DNA of 64,000 nt from contig NZ_CH672377.1 in assembly GCF_000153105.1 (NCBI RefSeq), forward strand, positions 1,458,405 to 1,522,404, in the 5' to 3' direction. This DNA is from Blastopirellula marina DSM 3645. Lineage in GTDB: Bacteria > Planctomycetota > Planctomycetia > Pirellulales > Pirellulaceae. The notes under the pieces were generated by a model. It was not told the DNA's origin. It worked only from the letters and a program-made list of their open reading frames with translations, and ran no database searches. The position numbers were made by a program, and so were the translations under genes. Shown here in pieces: positions 3,285 through 39,608 of the stretch; position 1 is the first letter of the stretch, and every line of letters begins with the position of its first letter.

Positions 3285-3668
3285 GCTTGCGCTAACTGCA
3301 GGTCAGGCCCTGACCTGACGAAGCACGACCGGCAAGGACCGGACCGCACCATCTTTTTTATTAAATTGCCTAGTCCTCTCCAGTGTCAGCTTAGGGGGCT
3401 TTTGCGCTGCGTCACTACGCCTAAACCGATTGGACCGGACCGCCTTGCTGGTCTTTTCGGCCAACGCGCGATTGTGATTTGATGGTTGATGCTCCGTCTG
3501 TAATCGAGCGGAAAACCGTGCGGATTGTCAACGGACAAATCTCGCGATTGGGCCAGGCTCCTCCACTTGCGCGATAGTGGCGAAAACTGCTTCCATCACT
3601 GAGTTGACTCCGGCTGCTGGCTCCTTGAAGATAGCCGCTGACTTTTCTGGCGAATCAGGAGACGGCGC
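3285..3668. other. Gene-free interval with short inverted repeats and array-like motifs
   Basis: No gene is seen. The interval holds a small hairpin (GGTCAGG...CCTGACC, near 3301-3317). Two segments, about 3337-3359 and 3430-3457, contain GGACCGGACCGC followed 3-9 bases later by a T-run. They resemble the minus-strand sequence of the 39-bp repeat unit at 38291-38890. Whether they share ancestry is an inference from short matches only. The promoter of the following flavodoxin gene should also lie here. Confidence 0.4.
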
Positions 3669-36007: not shown

Positions 36008-37936
36008 ATGTCGCACCAATCCGACCTGATCGCCACCGACATCAACGCTTATCTCGCTCAACACGAGCGAAAAGAGCTGCTCCGCTTTATCACCTGCGGC
36101 AGCGTCGATGACGGAAAAAGTACGCTCATCGGCAAGTTGCTGATCGAAGCCAAAGCGACCTTCGAAGATCAGCTCGCCGCGATCGAACGCGATTCGGCCA
36201 CGCACGGCACCGTCGGCGGAGAGCTCGACCCGGCCCTGCTGATGGACGGGCTCAAAGACGAACGTGAACAAGGGATCACGATCGACGTCGCGTATCGCTA
36301 TTTCTCGACGGCGAAGCGCAAATTCATCATCGCCGACACGCCGGGGCACGAGCAATATACCCGCAACATGGCGACCGGAGCGTCGACCGCCGACCTGGCG
36401 ATCATTTTGATCGACGCGCGGCATGGAGTGATGACGCAAACCAAGCGGCACAGCTTCATCACCTCGCTGTTGGGGATCAAGCATATCGTCGTCGCGATCA
36501 ACAAGATGGATCTGGTTGATTTCAGCCAAGAGCGGTTCGAGCAAATCAAAGCGGACTACGTCGAATTCGCCGCGAAAATGGCGGCCGACGACGTGCACTT
36601 TATTCCGCTCTCGGCCCTTAAGGGAGACAACCTGGTCACGGCGAGCCCGAACATGCCGTGGTACGACGGCAGCACGCTGATGCACTTGCTCGAAAACGTC
36701 TACATCGCGTCGGACCGTAACCTGCAAGACTTCCGCTTTCCGGTGCAACTGGTCAATCGTCCGCACCTCAATTTCCGCGGATTTTGCGGAACGATCGCTT
36801 CGGGGACGATTCGTCCCGGCGAAGAAATCATGGCGCTGCCGTCGAAGAAAACGAGCCGCGTCAAAGCGATCGTCACGATGGACGGCGATCAGGAAGAAGC
36901 CTGTCCGCCGTTGGCCGTGACAATTACGCTGGAAGACGAAATTGACGTCAGCCGTGGCGATATGCTGGTTCGTCCCGGCAATCAACCGCTGGTCGACGAT
37001 CGTTTCGATGCGATGGTCGTCTGGATGGACGAAGACCCGATGGTTCCCGGCAAATCCTATTTGGTGAAGCATACGACGACCCTCACGCCGGGTACGATCT
37101 CGACGCTGCGCTACCAAATCGATGTGAATACGCTCCATCGCAAAGATGCGCCAACGCTGGCGCTCAATGAAATCGGCCGCTGCGAGGTTCGCCTGAATCG
37201 CCCGATCGCGTTTGATCCCTATCCCAAAAATCGCACGACCGGCGCGTTTATCGTGATCGACCGGATGACCAATCGTACGGTCGCCGCCGGCATGATCATC
37301 GACCGTAAAGAGAAGAAGGTCGCCCACTGGGATGACGAGCCGACCTCGGGTCCCGCGAGCGAAGGAGTGACCAGCGTCACCGCCGAGCAGCGCGAAGCCC
37401 GGTTTGGCCAACAACCGACCACGCTGCTGCTGACCGGCTTGACCGGCGCCGGCAAAACAACCATCGCCTACGCCCTAGAACGCCGTCTGTTTGACGAAGG
37501 CCGCGCCTGCGTGGTTCTCGATGGACAAAATCTACGCAGCGGCGTCAGCAAGGATCTTGGCTTCACCGCCGACGAACGGTCCGAGAATCTCCGCCGCGGC
37601 AGCGAGATCGCCGCGCTGATGAACGGCGCCGGCATGATCTGCATCTGTGCTTTCACCGCACCGAACGAAGATGTACGGCAAAAAGCGGCCGAAGTGGTTG
37701 GCAAAGACCGCTTTATCGTCGTTCATCTCTCGGCGCCGATCGAAGTCTGTCGCGATCGCGATGATAGCGGCTTGTACGAGAAAGCGGACTCCGGCGAGAT
37801 CGCCAACTTCCCCGGCGTCAGCTATGAGTTTGAACCGCCGACCAATCCTGATCTGGTGCTGCCGACCCACGAGTTGGAAGTCAGCGAATCGGTCGACAAG
37901 ATTGTGGCGCTGCTGAAAGAGCGAAAAGTGATTTAG
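36008..37936 (+). CDS. cysNC: Bifunctional sulfate adenylyltransferase large subunit/APS kinase
   Basis: A 642-residue fusion. Residues about 20-435 are the EF-Tu-like GTPase CysN that drives APS synthesis: P-loop GSVDDGKS (31-38), DTPGH (110-114) and NKMD (165-168). Residues about 468-642 are the APS kinase CysC: P-loop GLTGAGKT (477-484, usually GLSGSGKS), then [15 protein letters not shown] and the lid region. APS kinase phosphorylates APS to PAPS for sulfonation or assimilation. With cysD this forms a compact sulfate-activation operon ending at a terminator. Confidence 0.96.
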
Positions 37937-37963
37937 TCACCAAAACGGTCAATGCAATTCAGC

Positions 37964-37992
37964 AAGAGACGCCTTGAGGGCGTCTCTTTTTT
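37964..37992 (+). terminator. Terminator of the cysD-cysNC operon
   Basis: A 9-bp stem AGAGACGCC / GGCGTCTCT with a 5-base loop and eight Ts, 28 bases past the cysNC stop. Roughly 300 bases of gene-free sequence then lead to the 39-bp array; nothing else was recognised in that stretch. Confidence 0.9.
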
Positions 37993-38290
37993 TTGCGCAT
38001 TTCTCGGCGCACCAAGTCGGGAACAGGGCGATGATCCACGCTTGCAATCCGCCAAGAATTGTCTGTTGACAAAGAGAACGGAGTTGGGGTCGATTGCAGA
38101 TTAAGTCTCAAAAATCGAATCACGTTCATCCGTCGGCCGAACAGGCGGACGCGGGGGGGGGAGATTCTCTGCACTTTGGCGATTCGACTGTTTGACACCG
38201 TGAAGTTCCCTCTTTGGCGACAGATCCTGTCTGCCGAGCCTGGCGGGGATACGCGCAGTTGCGAGACCACTGAACTCGCCTACGTATGCT

Positions 38291-38890
38291 GGTCCAGTCC
38301 AACCTGCCGGACAAAAAACAATGCGGTCCGGTCCAGTCCAACCTGCCGGACAAAAAACAATGCGATCCGGTCCAGTCCAACCTGCCGGACAAAAAAACCC
38401 TGCCGGACAAAAAACAATGCGATCCGGTCCAGTCCAACCTGCCGGACAAAAAACTATGCGGTCCGGTCCAGTCCAACCTGCCGGACAAAAAACAATGCGG
38501 TCCGGTCCAGTCCAACCTGCCGGACAAAAAACTATGCGGTCCGGTCCAGTCCAACCTGCCGGACAAAAAACAATGCGGTCCGGTCCAGTCCAACCTGCCG
38601 GACAAAAAACAATGCGATCCGGTCCAGTCCAACCTGCCGGACAAAAAACAATGCGGTCCGGTCCAGTCCAACCTGCCGGACAAAAAACCATGCGGTCCGG
38701 TCCAGTCCAACCTGCCGGACAAAAAACAATGCGATCCGGTCCAGTCCAACCTGCCGGACAAAAAAACAATGCGATCCGGTCCAGTCCAACCTGCCGGACA
38801 AAAAAACAATGCGGTCCGGTCCAGTCCAACCTGCCGGACAAAAAAACAATGCGGTCCGGTCCGGTCCAACCTGCTGGGCAAAAAAAACGC
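38291..38890. repeat. Tandem repeat array, 39-bp unit, 15 copies
   Basis: The unit on the plus strand is GGTCCAGTCCAACCTGCCGG then ACAAAAAACAATGCGGTCC. Fifteen copies are counted by the CCAACCTGC word. Variation is limited to CAATG/CTATG/CCATG, GCGG/GCGA and six versus seven As. Copy 3 carries a small internal duplication (CCTGCCGGACAAAAAA) and the last copy is degenerate. Because 39 is a multiple of three, several frames stay open on both strands, but none has a ribosome-binding site or resembles a protein. On the minus strand each unit gives GTCCGG-CAG...CTG-GA-CCGGAC, a hairpin, then CGCATTG and a run of six Ts. The array ends eight bases from the stop codon of the neighbouring minus-strand gene. 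Confidence 0.93.
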
Positions 38891-38897
38891 AAGCTTC

Positions 38898-39362
38898 CTA
38901 TTTCGCTTTGACTTCCGGCAGTTTCGCGACCACCACAATTCCAATTGTCGAAAGACTCGCGATCGCCGCCATCACCACCGGCGACGGTTGCATCAGCATC
39001 ATCGTCAACGTCACGCAGATACCGACCAGCAGCATCGCTTTGATCTTCACATTGCGCCGGACGCCGCGATGCTCGTTCCAGTCGCGGAGGATTGGGCCGA
39101 TCAGGCGATTGCGGAGGATCGCCGCGTTCAGTCGCGGCGAACTACGAGCCGCAAAGTAGCTGGCCAACAGCAGAAACGGCGTGCAGGGGAGGACCGGCAA
39201 AATGGCCCCCAAAACGCCGATCGCCAAAAAGAAGAAGGCGCCCGCGATAAACAACAAGCGGCGTAGCCCAACCGCAGCAACGACCGGCGACTCTTTCACC
39301 ACCGCGGGTGAGGAGCCGTGAACTCTTAAGCGACGTTTGGTTGTTGTCTTGATCGTATCCAT
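38898..39362 (-). CDS. YbaN/DUF454 family membrane protein
   Basis: A 154-residue inner-membrane protein. The family core is clear: LGAILPVLPCTPFLLLASYF, then AARSSPRLNAAIL and a segment GPILRDWNEHRGV before the last two membrane segments. The function of the family is unknown. The ATG at 39362 follows a GGGGT-like site; in-frame starts further upstream (39461 or 39479) would add an unconserved-looking leader of up to 39 residues. Its transcript runs directly into the 39-bp array, which may serve as its 3' end. Confidence 0.85.
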   Translation of the reverse strand: MDTIKTTTKRRLRVHGSSPAVVKESPVVAAVGLRRLLFIAGAFFFLAIGVLGAILPVLPCTPFLLLASYFAARSSPRLNAAILRNRLIGPILRDWNEHRGVRRNVKIKAMLLVGICVTLTMMLMQPSPVVMAAIASLSTIGIVVVAKLPEVKAK

Positions 39363-39608
39363 GCCCAAACCCCGTAAGGTCGACGCTGCTCGAATCGAGC
39401 GCCGCCTATTGCCAATGTACGTCAGCAATTCAGAAAGCGGCATTATCTGGCTATCGTCCATTCCCTGGGAAACCTGCACCGGTTAGCGAAAACAAATCGG
39501 CTGCTAGCATTATTCCAAATAGTCACCCCCAAAAAGCACCTCCTCTCCAGCAGGGGGAACGATATTCTAGGTCGTGCAGATTTCTTCCAATCGAAAAGGA
39601 GCTTGTCG

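Follow-up and report, generated by a model that had tools for sequence, protein, structure and literature searches.

A tandem array in Blastopirellula marina as the probable right end of a genus-specific dispersed element with helicase-bearing and gene-less copies

The array of 15 tandem units described here is most likely the right end, amplified in tandem, of a dispersed element that is specific to the genus and that carries no gene in this copy. It was found in the window, the whole stretch of 64,000 nucleotides of Blastopirellula marina DSM 3645 that was analyzed (contig NZ_CH672377.1, positions 1,458,405 to 1,522,404). The core of the unit recurs throughout the genus in clusters of one orientation, each cluster typically paired with a promoter-like box on its A-run side, and some copies of the family carry a gene for a putative DnaB-like helicase between box and motif. 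We consider it highly probable that the array is a right-end array of this dispersed family. The following features were recognized in the window (coordinates, strand, description):

36008..37936, plus: cysNC-like gene, convergent left neighbor (named by reading the translation)
37964..37995, plus: ordinary-looking intrinsic terminator of the upstream cysNC (terminator scan; context, outside the element)
38054..38103, plus: probable left end with the promoter-like box AAGAATTGTCTG-TTGACAAAGAGAACGGAGTTGGGGTCGATTG and its -35-like TTGACA, common to sister loci
38104..38290, plus: gene-less element body, weakly conserved among sister copies
38291..38890, plus: probable right end, a 15-unit tandem array with the core GGTCC(G/A)GTCC and A-runs (TRF, direct reading)
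38381..38398, plus: 18-bp partial unit CCTGCCGGACAAAAAAAC, which creates the sole 57-bp unit (38369-38425), a 39-mer plus partial copy
38898..39479, minus: DUF454 (YbaN-type) gene, convergent right neighbor (PF04304)
3336..3531, minus: second, small or minimal family element in the window, with a box at 3501-3531 (minus strand, 23/28) and one strict motif at 3336-3359 (T-run on the plus strand)

Both TRF and direct reading confirmed the 15 units at 38291-38890, and the substitutions among them are few, in agreement with the near-identical copies of the earlier sequence-only reading. The larger part of the array has a TRF score of 877, which corresponds to a strong tandem repeat. Ten units are 39 bp long, three are 40 bp, one is 57 bp and the final one is 33 bp. 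Owing to the 40-bp units, the array does not keep throughout to a period divisible by three, as the earlier reading had it, and the gap between the YbaN-type gene (stop at 38898) and the array is seven bases rather than eight. Two other assignments were rejected. Several frames are open across the array, as a coding repeat would have them, but the 40-bp units break the frame on reading and the periods of sister arrays (15-261 bp) keep no single frame. The units are contiguous and near-identical with no unique spacers, which does not fit a CRISPR array.

The repeat family and its two-ended copies

A second, nearly identical array is located in the same genome at about C1:1885440-1886110, together with diverged arrays, and the unit also recurs in the three other genomes of the genus. 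A search with the pattern A5-N(2-12)-GTCCRGTCC yielded 568, 321, 320 and 286 rows, respectively, for the four members of the genus, where the A-run-side strand counts each site several times. Outside the genus, none of the remaining 94 of 98 relatives exceeded 4 rows on a strand, and none of the remaining 237 of 241 family genomes exceeded 8 rows, with reversed-pattern controls of the same order. The repeat family is confined to one genus, where it occurs in all four genomes, and is at background level in the 237 other family genomes. A simple minisatellite, one of the options of the sequence-only reading, overlooks this genus-wide family around the window array: the proposed search of related genomes shows the core many times in all four members of the genus. 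A profile of 412 distinct motif instances, all from motif-selected loci, places GCGGTCCnGTCC after the A-run and reveals species dialects. Searches of IMG/VR and GTDB 220 contigs returned no relatives of the motif or of the helicase, an absence of little weight because near records may be left out, and none of the titles and abstract openings listed in literature searches mentions the repeat described here.

The architecture of the copies was analyzed in a motif-selected sample of 124 clusters, located in 119 of 120 loci. Sixty loci were derived from unit matches (15 per genus genome) and 60 from pattern matches (35 in G003, 25 in G000). Genes were called by a custom caller that penalizes ORFs over motifs, and clusters that lay close to the end of a locus, or were not flanked by called genes on both sides, were excluded without being counted. 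None of the 108 clusters with at least two motifs is of mixed orientation. The gap to the next gene is longer on the A-run side in 106 of 119 clusters (median 443 vs 163), and on this side the box AAnaTTGTCnnTTGACAAAGCGCACGGAnTtgnGGTCGATTg reaches a score of at least 19 of 28 in 86 of the 124 clusters, as opposed to a single cluster on the opposite strand; the remaining 38 have no box at score 19. On median, the box precedes the first motif by 199 bp (89 clusters at score of at least 17). The window box matches 26 of 28 consensus positions (38066-38096), and the array starts about 225 bp after the box start. Like the motif, the box is genus-restricted, with 35-71 matches per genus genome (at most 2 mismatches in 17) and 0-5 elsewhere, as in the control.

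The pairing is also evident when one starts from the box. Twenty boxes outside the sampled clusters were picked, eight in G000 for having no motif listed nearby and 12 in G001 and G002 from exact boxes; one of them, L222, scored 18 and was excluded. Downstream of 15 of the 19 remaining boxes, strict motifs form an array that starts after 112-268 bp, is on the strand of the box and has no opposite motif in the cluster. Among the four boxes without a strict motif, three (L226, L228 and L236) have loose matches only, while L224 has not even a loose motif nearby and an opposite strict motif about 2.4 kb away. The loose motifs downstream of the good box at L226 (G000:C2:3398100-3401100) are 13 bp apart, the shortest spacing seen.

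Most sampled copies have no helicase gene. A plus-strand partner was found for 60 of 78 gene-less bodies (95 plus vs 4 minus pairs), and an alignment of 61 bodies shows weak conservation. Their origin as simple deletions of the helicase gene is not supported, as 13 of the 78 match the nine helicase elements compared, mostly over short stretches.

Altogether, 850 kb of motif-selected loci contain 54 TRF arrays in cluster zones (68 kb) and 15 in the approximately 782 kb outside, the latter including a motif array whose cluster had been excluded (L088) and a tandem-box array (L110). The core is present in 52 of the 54 zone arrays, which have periods of 15-261 bp and otherwise different units. Since the motif is found in spite of these differing periods and bodies, it seems to nucleate array amplification. 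Slippage on arbitrary sequence does not predict a shared motif. The finding points to the motif as the place at which replication or strand transfer is restarted or comes to an end.

Several further observations were made at the sampled loci. REP-like palindromes (GTAGGGTSCG.., TAGCCCGAGGCGCGAGCCGAGGGAAT..) are abundant between motifs in the intergenic regions of all four genomes and form mosaics. By eye, motif doublets about 30-40 nt apart at three G002 loci (L074, L081 and L083) have flanks that can pair (e.g., GCTGC/GCAGC), with GGTCCAGTCC in the bulge and the A-run in the loop; the sequence of the stem seems variable. At L149:2827-5691 in G000, a transposase-like frame (by eye) is found among 11 motif copies of the same orientation, and the right-hand array of this locus has a 261-bp period. 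The orientation of clusters on the G003 chromosome looks uneven, with mostly one strand represented from about 3.4 to 6.0 Mb (by eye, among the matches listed).

Helicase-bearing copies and turnover between sister genomes

At some loci, a gene of about 430-600 codons occupies the region between box and motif. The numbers of helicase match rows in G000 to G003 were 13, 16, 20 and 11, respectively, and merging of split rows resulted in 13, 16, 14 and 11 copies, or 54 in total. Judged from domain matches and a structure model, the product is probably a DnaB-like replicative helicase composed of a DnaB N-domain and an AAA_25 motor, and its C-terminal part was read as winged-helix-like. For the protein P0001, Pfam reports PF13481 (AAA_25) at 6.2e-17 and PF00772 (DnaB N) at 5.5e-6, above the cut-off, and there are weak matches to DnaB and primase-helicase PHROGs; the DnaB N-domain of P0002 appears only below the Pfam cut-off. 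A sequence search of solved structures (PDB) with P0001 gave no match. Its predicted fold (mean pLDDT 77.7, pTM 0.56) has DnaB chains as the best PDB matches in Foldseek, in alignments with TM of 0.29-0.35 and rmsd of 14-28 A, and these values together with the pTM make the placement of domains unsure. In Pfam, PHROGs and NCBIfam, P0001 and P0002 matched helicase, primase-helicase or ATPase families and no HUH Rep. No recombinase or nuclease was recognized in the helicase protein, and a defense system was rejected, with no PADLOC match for either protein.

With a loose pattern, 48 of the 54 copies have the core close to the stop codon of the helicase, usually inside the reading frame, compared to a hand-estimated chance expectation of about 8; the matches at L176 and L195 look accidental, and the remaining six copies have no motif in this position. 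Of the 54 copies, 15 have the box upstream. Among the 39 without it, 16 carry a promoter-like sequence of another kind (TTGCAA-17-TATACT/ACACT or TTGACC-18-TATAAA type) that scores at least 24 of 31, and the remainder have a weak one or none. Tandem boxes about 239 bp apart, separated by a REP-like palindromic insert, were noted upstream of helicase copies at L110:1773-2493, L134, L181 and G000:C2:2608373-2609101.

In a tree of 53 helicase proteins, the species label changes 13 times, compared to 29.4 times after shuffling, a degree of clustering that near-copies alone yield. The helicase genes form several subfamilies that have expanded within each species. G003 has three 97% identical copies whose identity begins just before the box and stops at the motif. 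Among the matches listed, the identity between near-copies in G003 often extends from the box to a motif, and many near-identical pairs in G001 and G002 break at REP-like palindromes. Distant homologs from other genomes (25-34% identity) were found in settings that by eye look like those of phages, satellites or integrated elements, one of them (L158) beside a gene that was named integrase-like by eye.

Sister genomes differ in the presence of individual copies. The gap between cysNC and DUF454 contains the element in G000. In G001 and G002 the order of the genes is the same, with neither box nor motif between them, and in G003 five copies of a different unit make up a homologous array that adjoins DUF454. 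Upstream of this array, at L089:900-1290, an IS3-like transposase frame (by eye) is located where one would expect the left end by comparison with the orthologous element of the window. The site upstream of polX is empty in G001 and G002, filled by box, helicase and motif in G000, and filled in G003 by a gene-less copy that consists of a box and an 18-bp unit, devoid of A-runs, that is repeated 15 times. Both fillings end in GGTCC, located 5 (G000) and 0 (G003) bases before the shared host sequence GGGGTGTTGATC. The empty and filled polX sites thus characterize the elements as units of gain and loss. Thirteen pairs of G000 and G003 clusters have both flanks in common (involving 12 of 42 sampled G000 clusters), which indicates that many copies are inherited or old and that the arrays turn over; current activity of the element may be low. 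Among the characteristics of bacterial transposons, defined ends and an empty site were seen, no recombinase was recognized and no target-site duplication came to notice.

Alternative readings of the array

The sequence-only reading had interpreted the units as hairpin-plus-T-run elements, from which one could envisage that transcription of the DUF454 gene on the minus strand meets a barrier or a series of intrinsic terminators. The geometry itself is present as described (minus-strand GTCCGG-CAG..CTG-(GA)-CCGGAC, then 7 nt, then T6), the array lies immediately downstream of the DUF454 gene, and clusters are common in convergent gaps (51 of 119 intergenic clusters), all of which a terminator role would accommodate. 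The T-run, however, is 7 nt away from the hairpin, and the stability of the hairpin is at shuffle level (z = -1.21, with 30 of 200 shuffles equally or more stable; the shuffles were true dinucleotide ones for this hairpin and 2-base-block ones for the analysis of sister arrays). A terminator scan of 37800-39600 lists no site within the array and three in the region vs 3.6 expected, one of which is a plausible cysNC terminator (37964-37988). Of the 31 array rows with a period of 34-41, three have the GTCCGG/CCGGAC stem; they represent the window locus and its near-twin, and the stem is partly present in the L044 array as well. Between tandem gene pairs, the T-run strand is co-directional with the genes in 25 clusters and opposite in 27, and the conserved promoter-like box is oriented along the A-run strand, against the terminator direction. 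With the hairpin at shuffle level, the stem mostly lost and no orientation bias, serial terminators are not supported. Moreover, among the matches listed, sister arrays have other sequence in place of the CCTGCCGGAC half of the window unit, and the hairpin is thus not the conserved feature. The array does not look like a row of terminators, and we regard this role as extremely improbable. Caution is advisable with similar cases, as arrays of the hairpin-plus-T-run type may not be terminators.

Domesticated non-coding transcription units are another conceivable identity of the family, with the box as a promoter, an array-encoded repetitive RNA or a regulatory decoy that the host retains, and mobility confined to the past. 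The promoter-like box kept in gene-less copies, the weakly conserved bodies and the 13 cluster pairs common to G000 and G003 are consistent with such units. Nevertheless, bodies and units are strongly divergent between loci (among the matches listed), some loci are absent from sister species, the -10 region of the G000 and G003 box is far from TATAAT, and Rfam gave no match at E<=1 within 37900-39000 of the window; on this evidence we find the proposal unlikely. Replication slippage on decayed repeat copies, in which the motif has no special role, would produce an ordinary neutral minisatellite and correctly predicts both the near-identical units within arrays and the free differences between orthologous arrays. 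It leaves unexplained why the motif accompanies almost every zone array in spite of the range of periods and bodies, and why arrays are so few in the far longer sequence outside the zones, and it appears quite improbable. The highly conserved core with A-runs, the many copies per genome and the one orientation per cluster would also suit dispersed protein-binding or nucleoid/segregation sites that are not ends of a mobile element. Such sites are very unlikely given the motif at the 3' end of a multicopy gene and the existence of empty sites. A protein-binding array in itself, one of the options of the sequence-only reading, is conceivable.

Proposed mechanism and comparison with known systems

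As the amplified right end of a gene-less copy, the array is most likely a cis-acting terminus that resembles an origin or a transposon end, where both the movement of copies and the role of the array are what we infer. A full copy would extend from the left end with its promoter-like box through the DnaB-like helicase gene to the right end with A-run and GGTCCnGTCC, the motif usually lying already within the 3' end of the gene. The helicase would act at the motif, and in trans for gene-less copies, in a manner comparable to initiators on the iterons of plasmids or to the proteins of rolling-circle transposons on the transposon terminus. Whenever replication restarts at the motif or fails to terminate there, the sequence between two motif copies would be duplicated, and arrays could grow and homogenize in this way locus by locus. 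Taken by itself, this helicase-linked mechanism is a tentative proposal that we judge somewhat less than even; the statement that joins it to the right-end array of a dispersed family is one toward which we lean modestly. A further extension is speculative and rather doubtful as a whole: the family may represent a new class of bacterial mobile elements with a DnaB-like helicase as the sole protein, derived from a replicon whose promoter fires through the iteron-like right end (a transcription-activated origin). Local replication driven by the helicase would spread copies and amplify the sequence between motifs, and the gene-less promoter-plus-array satellites would be parasitic.

To our knowledge, dispersed repeats of bacteria are moved by transposases wherever the mover is known (RAYT, IS). 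In the present family, a homolog of replicative helicases is the only partner protein that was found recurrently, and a single short motif is the center around which units unrelated to each other form tandem arrays. Should the helicase be responsible for both spread and amplification, the family would be the bacterial equivalent of rolling-circle transposons that carry satellites, and the birth of tandem arrays could be studied in a natural setting.

Among known repeats, the GTAG-class REP/BIME elements, reported in Planctomycetes in the section of PMC3733652 used here, are likewise short, dispersed and of high copy number. These are palindromic, in contrast to the direct, non-palindromic GGTCC motif, and REP-like palindromes sit between the motif copies; membership in this class was rejected, as the GGTCCnGTCC core is direct and has no palindromic unit tagged with GTAG or CGTC. 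Satellite IncQ plasmids without replication genes, as presented in part of PMC6925257, are similar in being gene-less derivatives that live off full copies, but they are extrachromosomal. Helentron-type HINEs, in the passages of PMC7492417 and PMC4067079 considered, also combine gene-less copies moved by helicase-bearing partners with tandem arrays of unrelated units inside dispersed elements, and their tandem element arrays are ascribed there to a bypassed termination signal. They differ in being eukaryotic, in having a Rep/helicase with nuclease, and in their terminal palindromes and subTIRs. Gene-less and helicase-bearing copies of the present family share ends as in Helentrons and Helitrons (the right end widely, the left box in 15 of 54), whereas P0001 and P0002 have no recognizable HUH Rep nuclease. 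The HINEs serve as a second working model, for which neither homology nor membership is claimed.

Direct repeats of the kind found at iteron-type plasmid origins are present in the family arrays, and close parallels come from the replication module of the IncU plasmid RA3 (repB, DR2 repeats and oriV), as far as described in the sections of PMC9455977 drawn on here. The repeats in the RA3 arrays (38, 42 and 60 bp) have a stretch of only 11-16 bp in common, and one of them is located with 25 bp of its length in the 3' end of the gene for replication; the module also includes an AT-rich stretch, and its oriV is reported as transcription-activated from the far side of the repeats. The likeness thus extends to the short-core repeats, their partial location in the 3' end of a replication gene, the AT-rich stretch and, for the proposed mechanism, a transcription-activated origin. 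RA3, however, is a plasmid with a RepB initiator whose activating promoter lies on the far side of the repeats, while the copies described here are dispersed in the chromosome and, when full, encode a putative DnaB-like helicase; without any claim of homology, RA3 serves as our working model (PMC9455977, same sections).
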